Source: a virus. Taken from it: a stretch of DNA of 64,000 bases. The notes beneath the pieces were generated by a model that saw nothing but the letters and a program-made list of their open reading frames with translations, was not told the DNA's origin and made no database searches. Below are positions 8,159 to 29,320 of this stretch, one piece after another. The translations under genes and the position numbers were made by a program. The stretch covers positions 1 through 64,000 of the IMG/VR virus record IMGVR_UViG_3300009593_000010; one strand, given 5' to 3'. How positions within the stretch are numbered: the first letter of the stretch is position 1; each line of letters opens with the position of its first letter.

Positions 8159-8587
8159 ATGGCATATAGTAAACAAGTAGTAGAAAGATTCGAGGATGTC
8201 TTAAACAATCCAGTTAAACATGGAGTAGGACGATTCGACCCTAATGACCCTAATGTGGTTAGTGGTATGGTAGGAGCTCCATCTTGTGGTGATGTCATGA
8301 AACTTGATCTAAAACTAACAGATGAAAATGTTATCGAAGATGTTAAGTTTAAAACTTACGGATGTGGTTCAGCAATTGCATCATCCAGTTTGTTTGTAGA
8401 TATGTTAATAGGTAAAACTATTCAAGAAGCAAAAGAGATAACAGATAAACAAATTGCAACTGTATTAGAACTACCACCTATCAAGATACATTGTAGTGTG
8501 CTTGCAGAAGAAGCCATTGTAAAGGCAATTCAAGAGTGGGATGATAGAATACATCAAAGAAATCAAAATAAAACACTTGACAGATGA
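8159..8587 (+). CDS. iscU: IscU-like iron-sulfur cluster scaffold
   Basis: IscU assembles iron-sulfur clusters and hands them to target proteins. All functional residues are in place: Cys43 and Asp45 in GAPSCGD, Cys69 in TYGCGSAIA, Cys112 in KIHCSVLAEEA, and the chaperone-recognition motif LPPIK (LPPVK in bacteria) just before the last cysteine. At 142 aa it is slightly longer than bacterial IscU (about 128), with a short N-terminal VVERFEDV segment as in the family. It is therefore probably functional and was acquired from a bacterium. The gene is followed directly by the late-transcription protein gp33, with a promoter over its 3' end. It may support host iron-sulfur enzymes during infection. 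Confidence 0.93.
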   Translation: MAYSKQVVERFEDVLNNPVKHGVGRFDPNDPNVVSGMVGAPSCGDVMKLDLKLTDENVIEDVKFKTYGCGSAIASSSLFVDMLIGKTIQEAKEITDKQIATVLELPPIKIHCSVLAEEAIVKAIQEWDDRIHQRNQNKTLDR

Positions 8588-11091: not shown

Positions 11092-11988
11092 ATGTCTTTT
11101 CAAGACTTAAAAAGAAACCGCAGTGGGTTCGATACACTGCAAAAATCACTAGAAACCTCTAGTGGAAATAATACCCAAAAATCATTTGCTGATGATCGTT
11201 TCTGGAAAATAGAAATGGATAAATCTGGTAATGGATATGCAGAACTAAGGTTCTTGCCTGCACCTAATGGTGAAGACATGCCTTGGGTTCAGTATTGGGA
11301 TCATGGATTTCAAGGGCCAGGTGGTTGGTATATTGAAAAGAGTTTAACGACTCTTGGAAATTCCGACCCAGTTTCAGATTACAACTCTGAACTATGGAAC
11401 TCTGGAATCGAAGCAAATAAAGATATTGCAAGGAAACAGAAACGAAGATTACATTATGTATCTAATGTTTATGTTGTCTCAGACCCAGCACATCCAGAGA
11501 ACGAAGGTAAAGTTATGCTTTATCGTTTCGGTAAGAAAATCTTTGAGATGTTAAAGGATAAAATGCAACCTCAGTTTGAGGATGAACAAGCAGTTAATCC
11601 TTTTGACTTATGGGAAGGTGCAAACTTTAAAGTTAAGGTAAGGAAAGTAGATGGATTCTGGAACTATGATAAGTCTGAATTCACTGCACCAAGACCTTTG
11701 TTTGATGATGATGAAAAATTGGAAGCAACTTGGAATTCTCAACACTCTCTTGCTGGTGTAATTGCACCAGATCAATTCAAATCTTTTGATGAATTGAAAG
11801 AGAAGTTGGATAGAGTTCTAGGACTTGCTGTTGGATCCGCAACTGCACAATCAGTTAGTCAAGACAACTCTGATGTTGCACATCCATCACCAATGCCTGT
11901 TGCATCTGAACCAGTGACACCAGTAGTTAACGACTCGGCCGAGACAGAATCAATGTCTTACTTTGAGAAGTTAGCAAATGATGTTTAA
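11092..11988 (+). CDS. gp32: gp32, single-stranded DNA-binding protein
   Basis: gp32 coats single-stranded DNA during replication and recombination. The basic N-terminal segment (FQDLKRNRSGFDTL) for cooperative binding, the OB-fold core (FWKIEMDKSGNGYAELRFLP, WVQYWDHGFQGPGGWYIE, LHYVSNVYVVSDP) and the acidic C-terminal tail for partner binding are all present. At 298 aa it is the size of T4 gp32 (301 aa). The protein contains no cysteine. The T4 zinc-knuckle segment with CPVC is here SDPVSDY (residues 91-97), so the zinc site is lost. A GAGGA ribosome binding site precedes the ATG. Confidence 0.95.
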   Translation: MSFQDLKRNRSGFDTLQKSLETSSGNNTQKSFADDRFWKIEMDKSGNGYAELRFLPAPNGEDMPWVQYWDHGFQGPGGWYIEKSLTTLGNSDPVSDYNSELWNSGIEANKDIARKQKRRLHYVSNVYVVSDPAHPENEGKVMLYRFGKKIFEMLKDKMQPQFEDEQAVNPFDLWEGANFKVKVRKVDGFWNYDKSEFTAPRPLFDDDEKLEATWNSQHSLAGVIAPDQFKSFDELKEKLDRVLGLAVGSATAQSVSQDNSDVAHPSPMPVASEPVTPVVNDSAETESMSYFEKLANDV

Positions 11989-12004
11989 GATTCTTTAGAC
12001 AAGT

Positions 12005-12034
12005 TTGTAAATGTGAATTTTATAAATATATAAT
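12005..12034 (+). promoter_or_regulatory. Overlapping late (TATAAATA) and sigma70-type promoter after gp32
   Basis: TATAAATA lies at 12021-12028 and TATAAT at 12029-12034, with a weak -35 (TTGTAA, 12005-12010) 18 bp upstream of the latter. They point into the non-coding, hairpin-rich stretch that follows, with +1 near 12034-12041. Confidence 0.5.
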
Positions 12035-12181
12035 GCACAAACACTAAAGAAGTAGGGGACTAGTTTTCGAGTGCTAGTCAGATTGAGGACAGACGGATGG
12101 GGTCACTCAATTCGAGGAAAGATATCAAGCGGCAGAGGATATCGGATTAACGGCGGGAGAAGGGGCCAGTTCAATCACTTC
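12034..12181 (+). ncRNA. Candidate structured RNA downstream of gp32
   Basis: About 145 bases without a convincing gene are clearly GC-richer (28 of 60 and 31 of 60 bases in 12061-12180) than the surrounding DNA. Three perfect stems follow one another: GACTAG/CTAGTC (12058-12063 with 12074-12079, ten-base loop); ATTGAGGAC paired with GTC and CTCAAT around one bulged A (12082-12090 with 12102-12111); and GATATC/GATATC (12121-12126 with 12138-12143). GAAGT (12049-12053) can close the whole with ACTTC (12177-12181). A promoter lies just upstream. The strand is inferred from that promoter. I do not recognise a known RNA family or a tRNA. It could instead be the 3' UTR of gp32 or a convergent-terminator element. 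Confidence 0.55.
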
Positions 12182-12563
12182 AAAATTTTCTATACCAATA
12201 GATTCCATTATGCATAACGACTACTCCTTGAACTCCATTTAACCATCTGAGTGCTTTCTCTCTATCGTTCACTTGTTCATCAAGTATATTATAGATAAGA
12301 ATATTACCAAAAAGTTTTAGAGTAACCAGTTGACCCTTTGTAGGTCTCTCTCCTAATATTGGGTTCCTTTCAACGATAGGACAATATGGTTGTTTCTGAC
12401 AATCTATCATTGAAAATGTTTGGTATGTATCAAGAACAGAAAGTGCTACATAAGACTTCCAGAGTTTTTGTTCCTTCTCAGACCAATCTGAGGGTTTTGC
12501 TTGCAAAGGTTCGCAACTACCCGCTGCAGATATGAGAAGTATAATTGTAAATATCCATTTCAC
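12180..12563 (-). CDS. Exported protein with signal peptide (possible lipoprotein)
   Basis: The N-terminus is a signal sequence (MKWIFTIILLISAAG) followed by Cys17. AGSC is a weak lipobox, so cleavage by signal peptidase I after LQA (residue 22) is the alternative. The mature part has the pattern LSVLDTYQTF, then PYCPIVERNPILGERPTKGQL, resembling a widespread phage protein with DWxQT and ETNPILGxxPS motifs and probable further hydrophobic helices. Function is unknown; the outer envelope location suggests lysis or superinfection control. A GGAGG site precedes the ATG on the minus strand. It lies downstream of the tape-measure gene in the leftward island. Confidence 0.65.
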   Translation of the reverse strand: MKWIFTIILLISAAGSCEPLQAKPSDWSEKEQKLWKSYVALSVLDTYQTFSMIDCQKQPYCPIVERNPILGERPTKGQLVTLKLFGNILIYNILDEQVNDREKALRWLNGVQGVVVMHNGIYWYRKF

Positions 12564-12587
12564 TCACTCACACGCCTCCATCACGCA

Positions 12588-14726
12588 CTATAGTTGTTGG
12601 GAAACTCCCTTCTCTTCGTTTAATGCTTCAACTATCTGAATATTCTTAGTTATATTATTAACTGGATTAGTTGAAGATAATACTTGGTTTATATTTGCAC
12701 CACCACCTTGTTGCATTGATCTACCATCTGCAATCGTTCTTGCAGATTCAGTTAGTGTTGAACCAGATGTTGAAGGAACTATAACTGTTCCCATTGTTGC
12801 AACATTCATTGATGGTGTAATAACAAGACCATCTATTGAACCCAAAGTCTCTAGTCCAGACCTAAAGTTTGCAAGTGCATCCTTATCAAATCCGTCTAAT
12901 GATTTCTTGAGTATATCAAAACTATCTGCAACTGCCTTAACTGAATTTGCCTTACCTTCAAAGTTATCTGGAAGATCACCAACTTCTCTTAATAGGTCAA
13001 TTGGTGAATTACCTGTTAGATTATCCCACCAACCTATATCTGCACCTTTTATCCCAGAGAACATACCAAATCCTTTTGCAACACTTTCAATTGCAGGGCC
13101 CATTTTTACTAATTTTTCACTCTTAATATCTTGTAATCTAATTAGATTATCAACCATACCATCTAATGGAGAATGTCTATCAAAGAATGTTGTTGGAACA
13201 GAGGAGACTAGTTTTGTTATTTCTGCACTGACACCAGCAAGATTTTTGATATTGTTCTTTATTATATCGGTGTCTAATTCTGCAAAGGGTTTAACATCCT
13301 TTGCAAATCTACCTAAAGATGCACCTAATGCTAACAACATAACAGATAATGTTGCAATCCCAGCAGCTGCAACCAATGCTCCTACACCACTAGAAACTAA
13401 CATCCCAACTACAGCTACTAGTGCAGTTAGTCCTGTCATTGATGCAAGTATATCCAACATGGGTAAGTCTGCAAATGATTGCATTCCATCGAATGCTCCC
13501 ATTTTTTCACCAAGTGCAAATGCACCAAAGATTGCAAGGAGACCTAATCCGAGTGCAGCTCCACCAGCAATAATACCTATTGCACCTCTCGTCATTGCAG
13601 CGGAAAATGCAACTAGACCTTTTGCTGCAACCATAAGTCCTGCCCCAGCAGGCCCTGCAGAGACGGCTGCAACACCTAAGAATGCAGCTATACCCAACAA
13701 TCCTTTTTCTTTGATTGTTAGATCACTATCTTCATCAACTTCTAAAGATTTACCTTCTTCCTTCTTCCTACCTTCTTTTAATTTTGACCTAGCATTCTTC
13801 TCTCTCTGAGATGCATCTGCCTTTAACTTCTTCTTATCTAAAACATTTCCTTCTTTTTGAAGTTTTGCCATTGTGTCGAGAGCTCTCTTTTGAGCTCTTG
13901 CACCTTTCAATCTTACATATGTTTCTGCAATAAACTTTTTCAATAAGTTTCCAACAAAACTAGATATAGTACCAAGAAATGGTATGTTATTAACAACCAT
14001 ACCTATACCACCAGAGATTCTCATCATGTCTCCTTTAAGACCAGATGCTAAATCTGATCCTATGGAACCCATTGTTATATCTTTTTGCCAACCTTCAATT
14101 GTCCCACCTAGTTTTTCCATGTATGCTGTAAAATTTTTATAAGAGGGTGTCATATCTCTCAATATCTCTTTCATAGGTTTATGATACTGTTTACCAGTTA
14201 ATACTTCCTGTTGAAGTACCTTCTCTCTTAACAAGAGGTCTTTGAAGTTTGAATCTTCGATCTTACCACCAGTGACCTCAAGATTTTCAGAAATTAATTT
14301 TATAGCATCTTGAGTCTCAACTAATGCAAATTTACTCTCTCTTTGGATTGCTCTTTCTTCGTCAGTTTTACCATCAAGTTTATTGATTAGATCGGTGACT
14401 CTTGCTTTTTCTCCCTCTTCGGTTAAGTGACTTCCACCAGTAAATCTACCTTTTTTATCACGATTCATCTTGCTGTTATTAATATCCATTCCAGATCGTG
14501 TTTTAGCAGACTCCTCACTATTGTCTTTAATAATCTTACCCAACTCAGCAAAGTTTTGTGCAGTTGCAAGTTTCTTTTGAAGTGCAAGGTCTTCTTTATC
14601 AAGTGCTAACCTTTCCTTCTGAACAATTAAATCTTCATTGGACTGTTGTTGTTCTAGTTTTTGATATTTACTATCTGCTGCAGCCTGTTTCTTCTGTTGG
14701 TCTTTAATGTGTTGGTCAGATGACAT
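12588..14726 (-). CDS. Tail tape-measure protein candidate (gp29 position)
   Basis: A 712-residue protein with a long N-terminal coiled coil (about 1-75, Lys/Gln/Glu-rich), a basic middle, a very hydrophobic Ala/Gly-rich region at about 340-480 and a helical C-terminal part. This layout, with membrane-active hydrophobic helices in the middle, is typical of tape-measure proteins, which set tail length and are ejected into the cell envelope. Gene order supports it: it comes after the gp26/gp51 chaperone pair, as tape measures generally follow their frameshifted chaperones. Length is near T4 gp29 (590 aa). I see no sequence motif that proves it. Confidence 0.65.
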   Translation of the reverse strand: MSSDQHIKDQQKKQAAADSKYQKLEQQQSNEDLIVQKERLALDKEDLALQKKLATAQNFAELGKIIKDNSEESAKTRSGMDINNSKMNRDKKGRFTGGSHLTEEGEKARVTDLINKLDGKTDEERAIQRESKFALVETQDAIKLISENLEVTGGKIEDSNFKDLLLREKVLQQEVLTGKQYHKPMKEILRDMTPSYKNFTAYMEKLGGTIEGWQKDITMGSIGSDLASGLKGDMMRISGGIGMVVNNIPFLGTISSFVGNLLKKFIAETYVRLKGARAQKRALDTMAKLQKEGNVLDKKKLKADASQREKNARSKLKEGRKKEEGKSLEVDEDSDLTIKEKGLLGIAAFLGVAAVSAGPAGAGLMVAAKGLVAFSAAMTRGAIGIIAGGAALGLGLLAIFGAFALGEKMGAFDGMQSFADLPMLDILASMTGLTALVAVVGMLVSSGVGALVAAAGIATLSVMLLALGASLGRFAKDVKPFAELDTDIIKNNIKNLAGVSAEITKLVSSVPTTFFDRHSPLDGMVDNLIRLQDIKSEKLVKMGPAIESVAKGFGMFSGIKGADIGWWDNLTGNSPIDLLREVGDLPDNFEGKANSVKAVADSFDILKKSLDGFDKDALANFRSGLETLGSIDGLVITPSMNVATMGTVIVPSTSGSTLTESARTIADGRSMQQGGGANINQVLSSTNPVNNITKNIQIVEALNEEKGVSQQL

Positions 14727-14736
14727 TTCTTATTTC

Positions 14737-15123
14737 CTAATTTGGGTTGTTGTCGCCGTGTTCTTTTGCAGCCGAGTTGACATAAAGTCCAAACCATGCA
14801 GCTCCAGCACCTACCAATATGGATATCAGTCCAGATTGTTCTAATGTAGGGGCCTCTAATTCCATGAACCAGAATGTTGAAAAATAGAGTAGGTACATAT
14901 ATACACCTAAGAATAATCTTGGTATGATTCTCCATGCATCCATAGTCTTAGCTGCATGAATCCACTTCTGCCATGGATTTCTTTTATCCTCTAATTCTGG
15001 GTCTGTTGCTTCCCTTAGTTTATCTTTTAAGTCAGATATCTCTGCTGACATGCTCATGAACTTATCCAGATCAATCTGGACTTCGTTTCTAGTCATGTCT
15101 CCTACAATTCTATCATCACTCAT
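14737..15123 (-). CDS. Holin-like membrane protein
   Basis: A hydrophilic, coiled-coil-prone N-terminal half with DPELEDKRNPWQKW is followed by two membrane helices at about 66-86 and 97-115 (the second is GLISILVGAGAAWFGLYV) and a short polar tail. I recall the DAWRIxPRLFLxVY and GAGAAWFGLYV patterns from T4-type marine phages, where the protein is often labelled holin or left unnamed. The AGGAG site before the ATG is strong. Its place between gp51 and the tape measure is also consistent with a tail-assembly or membrane-anchor role. Confidence 0.6.
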   Translation of the reverse strand: MSDDRIVGDMTRNEVQIDLDKFMSMSAEISDLKDKLREATDPELEDKRNPWQKWIHAAKTMDAWRIIPRLFLGVYMYLLYFSTFWFMELEAPTLEQSGLISILVGAGAAWFGLYVNSAAKEHGDNNPN

Positions 15124-15155
15124 AATACTCTCCTATTATAATCTATGAATGGAGT

Positions 15156-15355
15156 TTATCTCGCATTCTTCTGTTGTTTGAGTCTCATCTCTTCCTCTTC
15201 TAACCATTGAGTGAGAAGAGTTATGTATAACTCCCTTTCCCAAGGCTCCATTCCTTCTAATTCATTCAGACTGTATTTGTGATGTTGTATCATCGCAAAG
15301 TTTGTCTGCATATAATTAGCTAATGTTTCATGAGAAAGGGTTATCCGAAAAAATT
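15156..15355 (-). CDS. gp51: gp51-like extension reached by -1 frameshift from gp26
   Basis: This frame is open across the gp26 stop codon. It encodes RITLSHETLANYMQ, then IQHHKYSLNELEGMEPWERE and a charged helix, ending at 15156. The sequence resembles gp51 (hub assembly catalyst) of T4-type marine phages as I recall it. An ATG at 15311 gives a 51-residue stand-alone product but has no ribosome binding site, and the residues before it look like real protein. A -1 slip in gp26 would give a fusion of about 298 residues. The last helices would be the tape-measure-binding part if this pair acts like the lambda G and GT chaperones. Confidence 0.75.
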
Positions 15356-16051
15356 TTGAAGTCCCTCAACCTCTATGCTATTTTCGTATCCACACTTCTC
15401 GTCTTTACAAACAAATTTAATATCATATCCAAGTCTGGGTAAATTTTCAAAGAATTTTGACATCTTCTCAAATTGTTCCCCAGTTAACCCATCCATGAAT
15501 TGACCTAACTCTTCAATATCAAAATCATCTCTTGTATGAACCTCTTCTTTATCGAAGATATTAACAATACACATTTCAACCATTTTAAATAGTATCTCAG
15601 TATTCAACTCTGGGGATACTTCCATCAGAGATTCAACTGCACCAAAGACTGGTGGTTGCATTGTCACACCAATGTCATCAGTTAATTGGACAACTGTTTG
15701 TCCATTACCTTCTGCATTCTTCATAACAACTTCTTCTAGGTTAACTGTCACTGCATTGGGTGTTTCACAAATATCACATGGATAACTGATAACACTCGTC
15801 TCACCAACAGACTTCATTCTTATCTGTATAAACAGATATTCTACATCAGGGCCTGGCAGAAATTTTATATCAACATCTGAACAAGACTGTGTAATATTAA
15901 ACAATGAACTTGCAATAACTTTTGCACTTCCATCCTCTAATGCTTGTAATAGAACCTTTTGTTCTTTTACTGTAAAGGGATGGATTTTAACCTTCTCTTT
16001 ACTTACTGGTAGTTCAACTTCATATTGAACTTTGTTTACTTGTGGTAACAT
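15341..16051 (-). CDS. gp26: gp26, baseplate hub / tail assembly chaperone
   Basis: The 236-residue protein matches T4-type gp26 in length (208 in T4), in its N-terminal start (VELPVSKEKVKIHPFTVKEQK) and in a zinc-ribbon-like pair of cysteine pairs: Cys92 and Cys95 in PCDIC, and a C-terminal CKDEKCG. gp26 is needed for assembly of the baseplate hub. Its last codons carry a slippery run that leads into the gp51-like frame, the layout of a tail assembly chaperone. A GGAG site precedes the ATG. Confidence 0.85.
   Translation of the reverse strand: MLPQVNKVQYEVELPVSKEKVKIHPFTVKEQKVLLQALEDGSAKVIASSLFNITQSCSDVDIKFLPGPDVEYLFIQIRMKSVGETSVISYPCDICETPNAVTVNLEEVVMKNAEGNGQTVVQLTDDIGVTMQPPVFGAVESLMEVSPELNTEILFKMVEMCIVNIFDKEEVHTRDDFDIEELGQFMDGLTGEQFEKMSKFFENLPRLGYDIKFVCKDEKCGYENSIEVEGLQNFFG
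15347..15356 (-). promoter_or_regulatory. Programmed -1 frameshift site at the end of gp26
   Basis: Leftward the sequence reads A AAT TTT TTC in the gp26 frame, containing two overlapping X XXY YYZ heptamers (A AAT TTT and T TTT TTC). It sits two codons before the gp26 stop. A one-base backward slip enters the gp51-like frame without interruption. Confidence 0.7.
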
Positions 16052-16084
16052 CTTTTCATTTCTCCATCATATAGTTGGTTGTTA

Positions 16085-16693
16085 CTAACCAAACAATTCG
16101 TTATTTAATTTCTCTTGAACTTTTCTTCCAAGTTTCTTTCCTACTTTACTAAGGAATCCACCAATAAGACTACTAGAGCCTGCATTGGGGTATTCTGAAT
16201 AGAAGTTTCTATACATAAATTGACAACTAACTTTTTGAATAGAACTATCATCTTGACTGAATGCCATTGAACTTATTTGCATAGGAAATGCCTCAACCAT
16301 TACAGTTCTCATAATACATTGACCATAATGGTCTAGTTGTTCTAAATATATTGTACCTTGATAATCATCATGGTATCTATTCATAAATTCTGGGAATGGA
16401 CTAAATATTTGTTCTTGCCAAAGATCAATTATCCTTCTATCTTCCATTCTATTATCTAATCTAAAGACACAATCAAATGGATCATACTGAGGTGCAAGGG
16501 GAACTGTTCTTCTTGGGCCATGATCTGCTGGTGTTGCAGTCATAAATCCACGGCCTGGATGAGATGCACTCTCACATCTAATTCCTCTTAATTTTAGTCC
16601 CTTTACCTTATTTCCAACACCAAAGATTGCAACATTAAACCTGTTAGGTCTTGCCATCGAGTCATATTGTGATTTAAATTGGTCTATCTTCAT
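16085..16693 (-). CDS. gp54: Tail-tube-fold baseplate protein (gp54-like)
   Basis: The 202-residue protein has the look of the gp19/gp48/gp54 tail-tube family: MARPNRFNVAIFG at the start, then YDPFDCVFRLDNRMEDRRIIDLW, then strands ending in KVSCQFMYRNFYSE, and a basic C-terminus. The tube gp19 is usually next to the sheath gp18, which would lie beyond gp17, and gp48 is found nearby at 17765, so gp54 (tube initiator on the baseplate) is the best fit. Its ATG overlaps the stop of the gene upstream. If gp19 were absent elsewhere in the genome, this would be the tube protein instead. Confidence 0.6.
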   Translation of the reverse strand: MKIDQFKSQYDSMARPNRFNVAIFGVGNKVKGLKLRGIRCESASHPGRGFMTATPADHGPRRTVPLAPQYDPFDCVFRLDNRMEDRRIIDLWQEQIFSPFPEFMNRYHDDYQGTIYLEQLDHYGQCIMRTVMVEAFPMQISSMAFSQDDSSIQKVSCQFMYRNFYSEYPNAGSSSLIGGFLSKVGKKLGRKVQEKLNNELFG

Positions 16694-17274
16694 CTCATTG
16701 CTTTCCTACTATCTGAGTATACTTGTTTAATACCAGCTTTCTTAAATTGTTCTACTGGTAAGAATATTGCAATTTCCCAGTCTGCTGAATCGACTAGTGC
16801 AATCTTACTTCTTATATGTTTAGTAAGATAATGTTTTACAGTTGCTTTATAGAAAGGTTTTTGTGCAACGGACTTAATAAGGTTGTAGTTTATCATCATC
16901 TTAGTTGTATCATCATATTTGGTATTATTAACAGTATCATACAATGCATCTAGGAATTGTGCCCTCATTGTGTGTGGTAGATAGTGTAGATTCATCCCTA
17001 AGAACCCATCTTTTGCCTTCTGGAAAGGAATCACTAATGGAAACCTATCGTAATAAGGTAATGTCTTCTTATGTTTTGGATCATAAAACATCATTGCCAT
17101 ACTACCAAAAATTGGTGTTGCTCTTTGTCGTTGATCTGTAATCAGACCTTTACGACTAGGAGTCCTCATCTGAGACACACGAGTTCTGAACCATTGCATA
17201 GACTTCTTCGTCCTTGCAGTGATACCACCACGAAATGCCTCTCGTTCTAACCTGTCAAATAGTTTACCTGCCAT
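16690..17274 (-). CDS. Conserved T4-type phage protein of unknown function, 194 aa
   Basis: A basic protein with a conserved-looking core, FYDPKHKKTLPYYDRFPLVI, followed by GFLGMNLHYLPHTMRAQFLD. I recall this pattern from many T4-type phages where it is listed as a hypothetical structural protein; I cannot name a function. It lies between gp4 and the gp54-like gene. The start codon has no ribosome binding site but lies exactly at the predicted +1 of a CATAAATA late promoter at 17280-17287. Confidence 0.65.
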   Translation of the reverse strand: MAGKLFDRLEREAFRGGITARTKKSMQWFRTRVSQMRTPSRKGLITDQRQRATPIFGSMAMMFYDPKHKKTLPYYDRFPLVIPFQKAKDGFLGMNLHYLPHTMRAQFLDALYDTVNNTKYDDTTKMMINYNLIKSVAQKPFYKATVKHYLTKHIRSKIALVDSADWEIAIFLPVEQFKKAGIKQVYSDSRKAMR

Positions 17275-17279
17275 ACATG

Positions 17280-17287
17280 TATTTATG
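17280..17287 (-). promoter_or_regulatory. Late promoter variant (CATAAATA), leaderless geometry, leftward
   Basis: Leftward the sequence is CATAAATA, then five bases (CATGT), then the ATG whose A is at 17274. That is the expected transcription start. Confidence 0.5.
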
Positions 17288-17719
17288 TCATTTGACTAAG
17301 TGATCTTCTGTTAATATACGAAATTTATATCCACGATCTAAACAATATTCACGAGCTGCATCCCATTTGAGTTCATTGATTGCATATCTTTTTCCCTCTG
17401 CAATGAAACGACCAGTAGATTTACGACCTTTCTTGGGTGGTGAACATTGTGCTTTAGGTTTAACCTCTATTATCTCTTGGATGACTTGACCAGATGTATT
17501 CTGGTATTTTATCCAGAAATCTGGGAAATAACGATGTACTTTACCATCTATACTACGATATGGTATCATTATCTCTTCACTATTCCACTCAAGTATCTGA
17601 GATGTTCTATCACAATACTTCATAAAGGTTAATTCCCATAGAGAACGATAGATGATCTTTGTTGAATCACCTTTATACTTTTTATAGTTAATTGGTTTGA
17701 ACCTACCCTTATAACTCAT
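17288..17719 (-). CDS. gp4: gp4, head completion protein (TnsA-like nuclease fold)
   Basis: gp4 (also called gp50/65) completes the filled head so that a tail can join. The 143-residue protein has the family pattern: RFKPINYKKYKGD, then IIYRSLWELTFMKYCD, then EEIMIPYRSIDGKVHRYFPDFWIK, then EIIEVKPK and FRILTEDHL. The Glu, Asp (YFPDFW) and E-x-K residues correspond to the catalytic positions of the TnsA/PD-(D/E)XK fold. Length is close to T4 gp4 (150 aa). It is the first gene of the leftward island, divergent from gp48, with a CATAAATA late promoter at 17760-17767. Confidence 0.9.
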   Translation of the reverse strand: MSYKGRFKPINYKKYKGDSTKIIYRSLWELTFMKYCDRTSQILEWNSEEIMIPYRSIDGKVHRYFPDFWIKYQNTSGQVIQEIIEVKPKAQCSPPKKGRKSTGRFIAEGKRYAINELKWDAAREYCLDRGYKFRILTEDHLVK

Positions 17720-27454: not shown

Positions 27455-29320
27455 ATGGCAATTAAAAGTAATCAAGTAAATATTACCGAATTAGATTTCG
27501 ATAATATATCAGCAAACCTTAAAGAATATCTTAAAGGACAAACTACATTAAAAGACTACGACTTTGAAGGAAGTAATCTAAGTATGTTATTAGACCTTCT
27601 AGCATACTCTTCACACCAATCAGCATTTAATGCTAACATGGTTGCATCCGAAATGTTTTTGGATACTGCACAAATCAGAAAGAATGTAGTTTCTCGTGCA
27701 AAGGAAATAGGGTATGTTCCGACCAGTGCATCTGCTAGTACAGCAGTCATTGATCTGCAAGTTAATAGTCCAAGTATAGGTGGGTCAACTCCTACCTCTT
27801 TAACTCTAAGTAGGGGTCATAAATTTACTACTAGTTTTGATGGAATCACATATCCATTTGTTGTATTAGACACACAAACAATCGGCCCTTCTAATGGAAT
27901 ATTTAAGTTCTCTAACCTAGAGATTCATCAAGGGTCTATGAACACCGATCTCTATAAGTACAATTCTCAGATACAGAACCAAAGATTTCCGATGACTGAG
28001 AGTGGTGTGGATACCACATCCGTCTCGATTACTGTGACTTCTGGGGAGAAGACTACTGCGTGGACTCAATCAAAAGACCTCAGTTCAGTTAACTCTAAGT
28101 CTACAGTTTGGTATGCCCAAGAAAATGATGAAGGATTCTTTGAAGTATATTTTGGAGATGGTAATGTCAGTGCAGAACCTTTAGATGGAGATACGATTAC
28201 TATATCATATTTGGTCACTAACGATAGTCATGCAAATGGTGCTAAGACCTTTTCCATGTCCGATAATATTTCTGGTAATTCAGATGTCACTATTACAGTA
28301 GGAATACCATCTACTGGTGGAAAGGGAAAGGAATCAATCGAGTCAATTAAATTTGCAGCCTCTAAGTTTTATACTTCTCAAAATAGATTAGTGACTGTAG
28401 ATGATTATAAAGCAAAACTCCAAACATTATATCCTGGCGCAGATTCAATTGCAGTCTGGGGTGGAGAAGATAATAATCCACCACAATATGGAAAGGTGTA
28501 TATTTCCATTAAACCTTCTCAGACAGTAAACACATTAACAACTACTGAGAAACAGAATTTAAAAACTGGTCTTAAAGCATTAAACATGTTAACAGTTAGA
28601 CCAGAGATTATAGATGCAGAGGTTATTGACATTGTAGTTAATTGTACATTTAAGTACAACCCTCGTGCAACTACTAAAACAAAAGGTGAATTAGAAACCA
28701 TTGCAAAGGCTGCTATTATTAATCACGATAGTACCTATTTGTCTGGGTTCGATTCAATATTCAGAATGTCTGTATTGCAATACGATATAGATAACTCTGA
28801 ATCAAGTATACTAAGTAATATAACAAACACCAAGTTAAGGAAATCCTTAACTCCAACATTGGGTACTTCTAAAGGGTACACAATAGAGTATGGTTCTGGT
28901 AATGGGTTCTACAATCCAAATACAGGATACAATAAAGATGGTGGTGGTATATTAGTCACTACAGGATTTGTCAACTCTGGAGATGCTTATACATCTTACT
29001 TTGATGATGATGGTAGTGGAAACCTCAGACGATATTATATGTCTGGGTCAACAAGAATTTATGCTGATTCCGAAGCAGGAACAGTTGACTACAGTAATGG
29101 TAAGATATCATTAAATGGTATCAATGTTGTAAGTACGGAAAATACTAACAACACAATTTACTTTACAGTAGTTCCGAATTCATATGATGCAGTTGCATTT
29201 AGAAGAAACCTTCTGGATATAAACACATCATTGATAAGTGTGACTGGAGTTTCAGACTCCATCGCATCTGGTGATACGAGTGCTGGAGTTGGGTACACCT
29301 CAACAAGTAGTCACTCCTAA
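27455..29320 (+). CDS. gp6: gp6, baseplate wedge protein
   Basis: gp6 (gpJ-like) forms the ring that holds the wedges together. The 621 residues (T4: 660) start with the typical FDNISANLKEYLKGQTTLKD and LLDLLAYSSHQSAFNANM, AQIRKNVVSRAKEIGYVPTS pattern of this family, then SVDDYK-like TVDDYKAKLQTLYPG and VRPEIIDAEVIDIVVN later. The C-terminal 100 residues are Gly/Ser-rich. It lies between gp25 and a structural gene, in the usual order. Confidence 0.92.
   Translation: MAIKSNQVNITELDFDNISANLKEYLKGQTTLKDYDFEGSNLSMLLDLLAYSSHQSAFNANMVASEMFLDTAQIRKNVVSRAKEIGYVPTSASASTAVIDLQVNSPSIGGSTPTSLTLSRGHKFTTSFDGITYPFVVLDTQTIGPSNGIFKFSNLEIHQGSMNTDLYKYNSQIQNQRFPMTESGVDTTSVSITVTSGEKTTAWTQSKDLSSVNSKSTVWYAQENDEGFFEVYFGDGNVSAEPLDGDTITISYLVTNDSHANGAKTFSMSDNISGNSDVTITVGIPSTGGKGKESIESIKFAASKFYTSQNRLVTVDDYKAKLQTLYPGADSIAVWGGEDNNPPQYGKVYISIKPSQTVNTLTTTEKQNLKTGLKALNMLTVRPEIIDAEVIDIVVNCTFKYNPRATTKTKGELETIAKAAIINHDSTYLSGFDSIFRMSVLQYDIDNSESSILSNITNTKLRKSLTPTLGTSKGYTIEYGSGNGFYNPNTGYNKDGGGILVTTGFVNSGDAYTSYFDDDGSGNLRRYYMSGSTRIYADSEAGTVDYSNGKISLNGINVVSTENTNNTIYFTVVPNSYDAVAFRRNLLDINTSLISVTGVSDSIASGDTSAGVGYTSTSSHS

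Follow-up and report, generated by a model that had tools for sequence, protein, structure and literature searches.

The window, by which we mean the whole stretch of DNA that was analysed, comprises the first 64 kb (64,000 nucleotides) of a virus record (IMG/VR record IMGVR_UViG_3300009593_000010) that has 129,558 bases and a GC content of 36.2%. The record is akin to marine T4-like phages. The capsid proteins of Methylophilales phage Melnitz and Pelagibacter phage HTVC008M are 67% and 65% identical to its own, respectively. In the window, the gene of gp32 is followed by a gap carrying the late promoter box TATAAATA (12021-12028), then by the element studied here, and then by a minus-strand ORF whose stop codon is at 12180 (Table 1).

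A sequence-only reading had described the stretch 12034-12181 after gp32 as a GC-rich candidate for a new phage RNA with three consecutive stems. These coordinates hold, with gp32 recognised by PF08804 and ending at 11988. The GC content, which had been put near 50%, is 50% over positions 12051-12180 compared with a genome mean of 36.2% (sd 4.2), and equally high values are found in 0.23% of genome windows. The mean G4Hunter score of the element is 0.59 versus a genome mean of 0.10, with 0.03% of windows as high. All three stems exist (H1, H2 with one bulge, and H3), and a fourth one, H4, had been left unlisted. The proposed closing ends GAAGT and ACTTC (12049-12053/12177-12181) are present in the window but are not conserved in relatives.

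Table 1. Features of gp32 and the region downstream of it in the window
Feature	Position	Strand	Remarks
gp32, single-stranded DNA-binding protein	11092..11988	+	PF08804, E 6.5e-41; phrog_224
H0, inverted repeat around the late promoter	11991..12051	+	TTCTTTAG 11991-11998 with CTAAAGAA 12044-12051
H0, inner pairing	12003-12008 with 12037-12042	+	GTTTGT with ACAAAC
TATAAATA, T4-type late promoter box	12021..12028	+	putative transcription start near 12034
Structured RNA, whole	~12034..12181	+	about 148 nt; conservation and covariation; 3' end without a defining terminator
H1 hairpin	12058..12079 (12058-12064 with 12073-12079)	+	variable sequence; GGGG run just before
H2 hairpin	12081..12112 (12081-12090/12102-12112)	+	one bulge; G-rich loop GGATGGGG
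J2/3, conserved single strand	12114..12120	+	GAGGAAA; G.GG.AA invariant in alignment A1
H3 stem	12121-12126/12138-12143	+	GATATC/GATATC; loop holds invariant GCGGCAG (12129-12135)
H4, 10-pair stem with bulges	12145-12154/12165-12176	+	loop bounded by GCGGG 12153-12157 and GGGGC 12162-12166

The minus-strand gene block at 12180-17719 is the only sizeable one in the record. It holds a T4 baseplate protein (PF12322, 15341-16051), and no TATAAATA box lies upstream of it on its own strand. A 127-aa ORF of this block (12180-12563) has a lipoprotein-like signal sequence, and a 712-aa protein (12588-14726, minus strand) has Gly/Ala-rich hydrophobic stretches; neither has a Pfam or PHROG match. Elsewhere in the window, an auxiliary metabolic gene on the plus strand (8159-8587) encodes a NifU-like protein of iron-sulphur assembly (PF01592, phrog_8429). 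The record has only two tRNAs (Asp and Ala, at L360:2874-2950 and L361:15989-16064) and no tmRNA.

Relatives of the element

Relatives were collected starting from 80 IMG/VR loci that encode gp32 relatives. The element was found directly after gp32 at the loci whose gp32 has at least 64% amino-acid identity and which have enough downstream sequence, and it is absent from the distant gp32 loci (L063-L080). Three scans for sequence motifs, covering 2.9 million viral contigs, added further members; the matches listed from the third scan are a lower bound. The scans used the motifs GCGGCAG and GCGGG, both of which are also present in the gp32-based set, gathered without them. The AT-rich motif matches represent the same element behind TATAAATA, except for two whose contigs end too soon to show the box. 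The remaining ones are GC-rich, have no late box and were discarded as chance matches. The parsed set includes 68 distinct members, and the total in IMG/VR is at least 68.

Every member that could be checked lies directly 3' of gp32, which is the upstream neighbour in all cases where the contig reaches that far. The element occurs in a single copy in each record that was searched whole, with no credible copy elsewhere, although virus contigs may be incomplete. The covariance model R1 matches the window at 12108-12186 with 76.1 bits and found no credible second copy in the window's own record; a match at position 29091 (13.8 bits, E 0.73) was attributed to chance. The model found none in HTVC008M, P-SSM2 and the single-cell viruses AG-345-L05, AG-345-O18 and AG-345-E15. 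Two matches of about 20 bits, one where gp22 borders gp23 in Melnitz (127619) and one within a gene of P-HM2 (142936), were judged to be chance. In Melnitz, gp32 is followed by a purine-rich stretch (L261, 3407-3560) and then by a terminator; the stretch has no R1 match and may be an analogue. A blastn search of the element against 50,697 phage records gave short chance matches only. A scan of genome contigs for the core motif resulted in 24 matches in bacterial genomes; none of the six scored by the covariance model matched, and no host was indicated.

In a tree of 51 gp32 proteins, a single branch with SH-aLRT 97 has all 32 RNA-bearing ones on one side, and HTVC008M and Melnitz fall outside that side. 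This comparison shows that the RNA has been inherited together with gp32.

Conservation of the fold

The single-sequence folding energy of the element is not unusual (z -1.28) and is thus uninformative, so the evidence for a real fold is comparative. The alignment of group C (30 distinct sequences) supports six helices with 36 base pairs, in which 94.9% of cells are paired. Double changes affect 21 of these pairs in 162 cells, versus 55.7 cells in shuffles. In slid controls, where pairing partners were moved by one to three columns, 8-25 compensated cells were obtained; the slid control removes sequence relatedness, which the shuffle control leaves in. The element therefore has helices kept by compensatory changes, as expected of a structured non-coding RNA. 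The lack of such changes would have refuted the sequence-only reading of the candidate, and their abundance supports the proposal of a new phage RNA, either independent or forming the 3' end of the gp32 message.

Both 3' helices (H3 and H4) are kept in 68 of 68 parsed members. H3 is fully paired in each of them, and its stem is swapped as a unit (TGCACC/GGTGTA, TGCTCC/GGAGTA, GATACT/AGTATC). H4 retains, beyond its invariant GC pairs, 7-10 pairs of changing sequence in all 68 members; the pair beside the inner GC pairs occurs as GC, AU, UA and GU. In group C, H1 has double changes at five of its six pairs, and H2 (9 pairs, 99.3% paired) has four double-change pairs. A search for pseudoknots by covarying columns gave no convincing additional helix. 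In group C, 65 cells have G-U and 13 have A-C; for H3, counted over all members, the corresponding numbers are 24 and 0. This excess of G-U identifies plus-strand RNA as the molecule under selection.

The unpaired sequences of the core are conserved as well. GCGGCAG in the H3 loop and GCGGG and GGGGC around the H4 loop are invariant, and J2/3 is GAGGAAA or GTGGTAA depending on the group, or GCGGAAA (in L299, L320 and L322). The core in the window is 77-95% identical to that of eight relatives, compared with 73-85% for gp32 DNA, and is the more conserved of the two in seven of the eight. The 5' region varies: the sequence of H1 changes freely, group C has an extra hairpin, and in two members (L002 and L006) H1 and H2 are missing and the core alone is kept. 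These two members group in the gp32 tree with L001, L004 and L008, which have both H1 and H2, and loss is the simplest explanation of the short form. Since they retain the core alone yet group with full-length members, it is the core and not the 5' domain that appears to be essential. Taken together, comparative genomics demonstrates the existence and the fold of this RNA at the level of sequence.

Transcription and possible roles

The TATAAATA box precedes the element in 65 members whose contigs reach it, and also in L320 and L322. In every member with a contig reaching it, the late promoter lies about 30-120 nt ahead of the core; such a box marks the start of a T4-type late transcription unit. 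The late box had been pointed out by the sequence-only reading, and its occurrence is significant: in the whole record (129,558 bases) TATAAATA is found 20 times on the plus strand and once on the minus strand. The sigma70-type box claimed beside it does exist (TTGTAA-18-TATAAT, 12005-12034) but is at chance level, with 3 found versus 1.1 expected. We infer that the RNA is transcribed from the conserved late promoter.

The interpretation that we prefer, and consider somewhat probable, is that the element encodes a small structured late RNA that stands alone and acts in trans through its invariant G-rich loops. It would be a gene of a clade of uncultivated marine T4-like phages. Late in infection, gp55-type late transcription would produce an RNA of about 150-200 nt, whose fold has a variable 5' region (H1, H2 and, in group C, the extra hairpin) and a conserved 3' core (GAGGAAA, H3 with the GCGGCAG loop, and H4 with GCGGG...GGGGC). 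The unpaired loops would be presented to a protein partner, for which phage or host nucleic-acid machinery is the candidate, and the 5' hairpins may be expendable spacers. The invariant late promoter and the lack of a co-directional gene downstream in group C favour such an independent RNA; in that group the downstream neighbour is a convergent gene whose stop codon abuts the 3' end of the RNA.

The idea of protein binding has one basis, namely the invariant loops that have no base-pairing partners. The longest run of complementarity to the element's own 129.6-kb record is 13, compared with 13-18 in shuffles, which argues against a long antisense target in the same genome. CTGCCGC, the complement of GCGGCAG, has a single plus-strand occurrence in the 3' end of the gene that precedes gp23, which was judged to be chance. 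Some observations speak against the preferred reading. No terminator-like site was found within 11900-12300, so that without processing the late transcript would continue, in antisense, into the convergent gene. Additionally, the synteny with gp32 has no exception, and a trans-acting RNA would have no need of it.

A more specific scenario is offered tentatively, as possible rather than probable. A late trans-acting RNA may have replaced the gp32 terminator in one marine T4-like lineage and may bind core machinery of the phage or the host, with gp32, the late-transcription complex and host RNA polymerase as candidates, by its invariant G-rich loops, thereby controlling the switch to late infection or DNA metabolism. 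It would represent a new class of viral regulatory RNA.

The main rival assigns the element to the gp32 mRNA as its structured 3' untranslated region. The fold would protect or process the message or take part in gp32 autoregulation, and the promoter would merely add late transcription. We regard this as rather unlikely, although the position of the element directly after gp32 in all cases speaks for it. It also gains from H0, which encloses the promoter and thus can form only in gp32 read-through transcripts, not in the late transcript. The promoter-enclosing repeat has a different sequence in groups A, B and D and is still complementary; its covariation is modest in group A (10 compensated cells versus 2.3 shuffled) and weak in group C. 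The distribution of terminators points in the same direction. A script found an intrinsic terminator after gp32 in 12 of 20 loci without the RNA and in 6 of 57 RNA-bearing loci, four of the six being H1 itself. The terminators after gp32 in HTVC008M and Melnitz are visible by eye and were missed by the script, and in the window no G+C-rich hairpin with a T run was found as an intrinsic gp32 terminator. On the other hand, wherever the contig reaches far enough, a late promoter separates gp32 from the fold and would make the RNA without gp32, there is no downstream gene in group C for this promoter to serve, and invariant loop sequences are unnecessary for protection of an mRNA. The untranslated-region and stand-alone readings are compatible, since a gp32 read-through transcript would carry the same fold.

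It is improbable that the element acts at the level of DNA or as a primer, i.e., that a G-rich late transcript, by forming an R-loop, initiates or directs the late replication of DNA like RNA II at the ColE1 origin. The unusual clustering of G and the location at a convergent junction beside a replication gene would fit this role. However, the excess of G-U over A-C and the loop conservation show selection on a folded RNA, nothing marks the site as an origin, and T4 late promoters themselves depend on ongoing replication.

That the element regulates a downstream gene in cis, as a leader or riboswitch, is already disfavoured, and we consider it very improbable. An ORF on the same strand follows in group A (66-79 aa) and in group D (426 aa), and in these groups the element may also serve as a leader. 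However, the downstream gene is convergent in group C, the following gene differs among groups, so that there is no conserved co-directional gene downstream, and no riboswitch family matches. Nothing co-directional follows in about half of the members, which argues against a leader. The reading as a small-protein gene, likewise already disfavoured, has a negligible chance of being right: a 48-aa ORF (12071-12217) overlaps the element in the window, but at most 7 of 65 members have any given frame open along the whole element, element lengths spread across all three residues modulo 3, and the stems change by compensation. The element is thus non-coding, given that the 65 members share no open frame, and the ORF conserved at the protein level that would have spoken against the sequence-only reading was not found.

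Comparison with known RNAs

No known family had been recognised by the sequence-only reading, and Rfam 15 likewise gave no matches in the window at the gathering thresholds; with E values up to 10 allowed, 11950-12250 had no credible match either. Weak matches to snoR22, sn2524, SCARNA7 and mir-3047 are far under their cut-offs, are eukaryotic and were ascribed to chance. At six loci bearing relatives, searched at E up to 1, the sole match was to one microRNA model at half its cut-off. No description of this RNA was found in openly licensed literature.

The RNA is similar to the protein-sequestering RNAs CsrB and RsmZ in having several hairpins, G-rich unpaired motifs and a decoy-like architecture. 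In contrast to them, it has no conserved GGA loop motif: J2/3 is GAGGAAA or GTGGTAA by group, and GGA is not kept there in group A. It shares with the primer RNA II of ColE1 a folded structure, G-rich loops and proximity to a replication function, but it lies behind a late promoter and shows no evidence of an origin or a hybrid. The constant position after gp32 and behind a late promoter, together with the invariant loops, makes this RNA a concrete object for experiments, and the alignments and the R1 model are sufficient to find it in metatranscriptomes.

Several orphan RNA classes have been described from marine and phage sequences, including manA, wcaG, PhotoRC-II and Ocean-V (Weinberg et al. 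2010, PMC2864571). These classes and the present RNA are conserved, covarying and found mostly in marine metagenomes, and some of the classes occur in T4-like cyanophages. The classes that have an Rfam model (Ocean-VI has none) do not match this RNA, and manA, wcaG and PhotoRC-II differ in being linked to genes of metabolism or photosynthesis. Melnitz and pelagimyophages carry a permuted (two-piece) tmRNA and a glutamine riboswitch near gp33, gp59 and gp32 (PMC9004378). This is the same phage neighbourhood, but in the window's record neither a one-piece nor a two-piece tmRNA (ARAGORN, Rfam) nor a match to the Rfam models of the glutamine riboswitch (glnA / Downstream-peptide) was found. Another small phage RNA is the antisense RNA CfrI of cyanophages, located at the psbA 3' end (PMC5931967). 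The RNA described here differs from CfrI: within its own genome, no antisense target exceeds chance.

To our knowledge, few RNAs besides tRNAs are known from T4-like phages. The stable RNAs C and D of T4 are small phage RNAs without a protein product and are located in a tRNA cluster. The present RNA is like them in being a small phage RNA that does not encode a protein, and it differs from them in its location. With no relative found in Rfam 15, by ARAGORN or in the isolates tested, we rate it as new: a well-supported RNA family in an ocean-virus lineage related to phages of SAR11 and OM43 bacteria.
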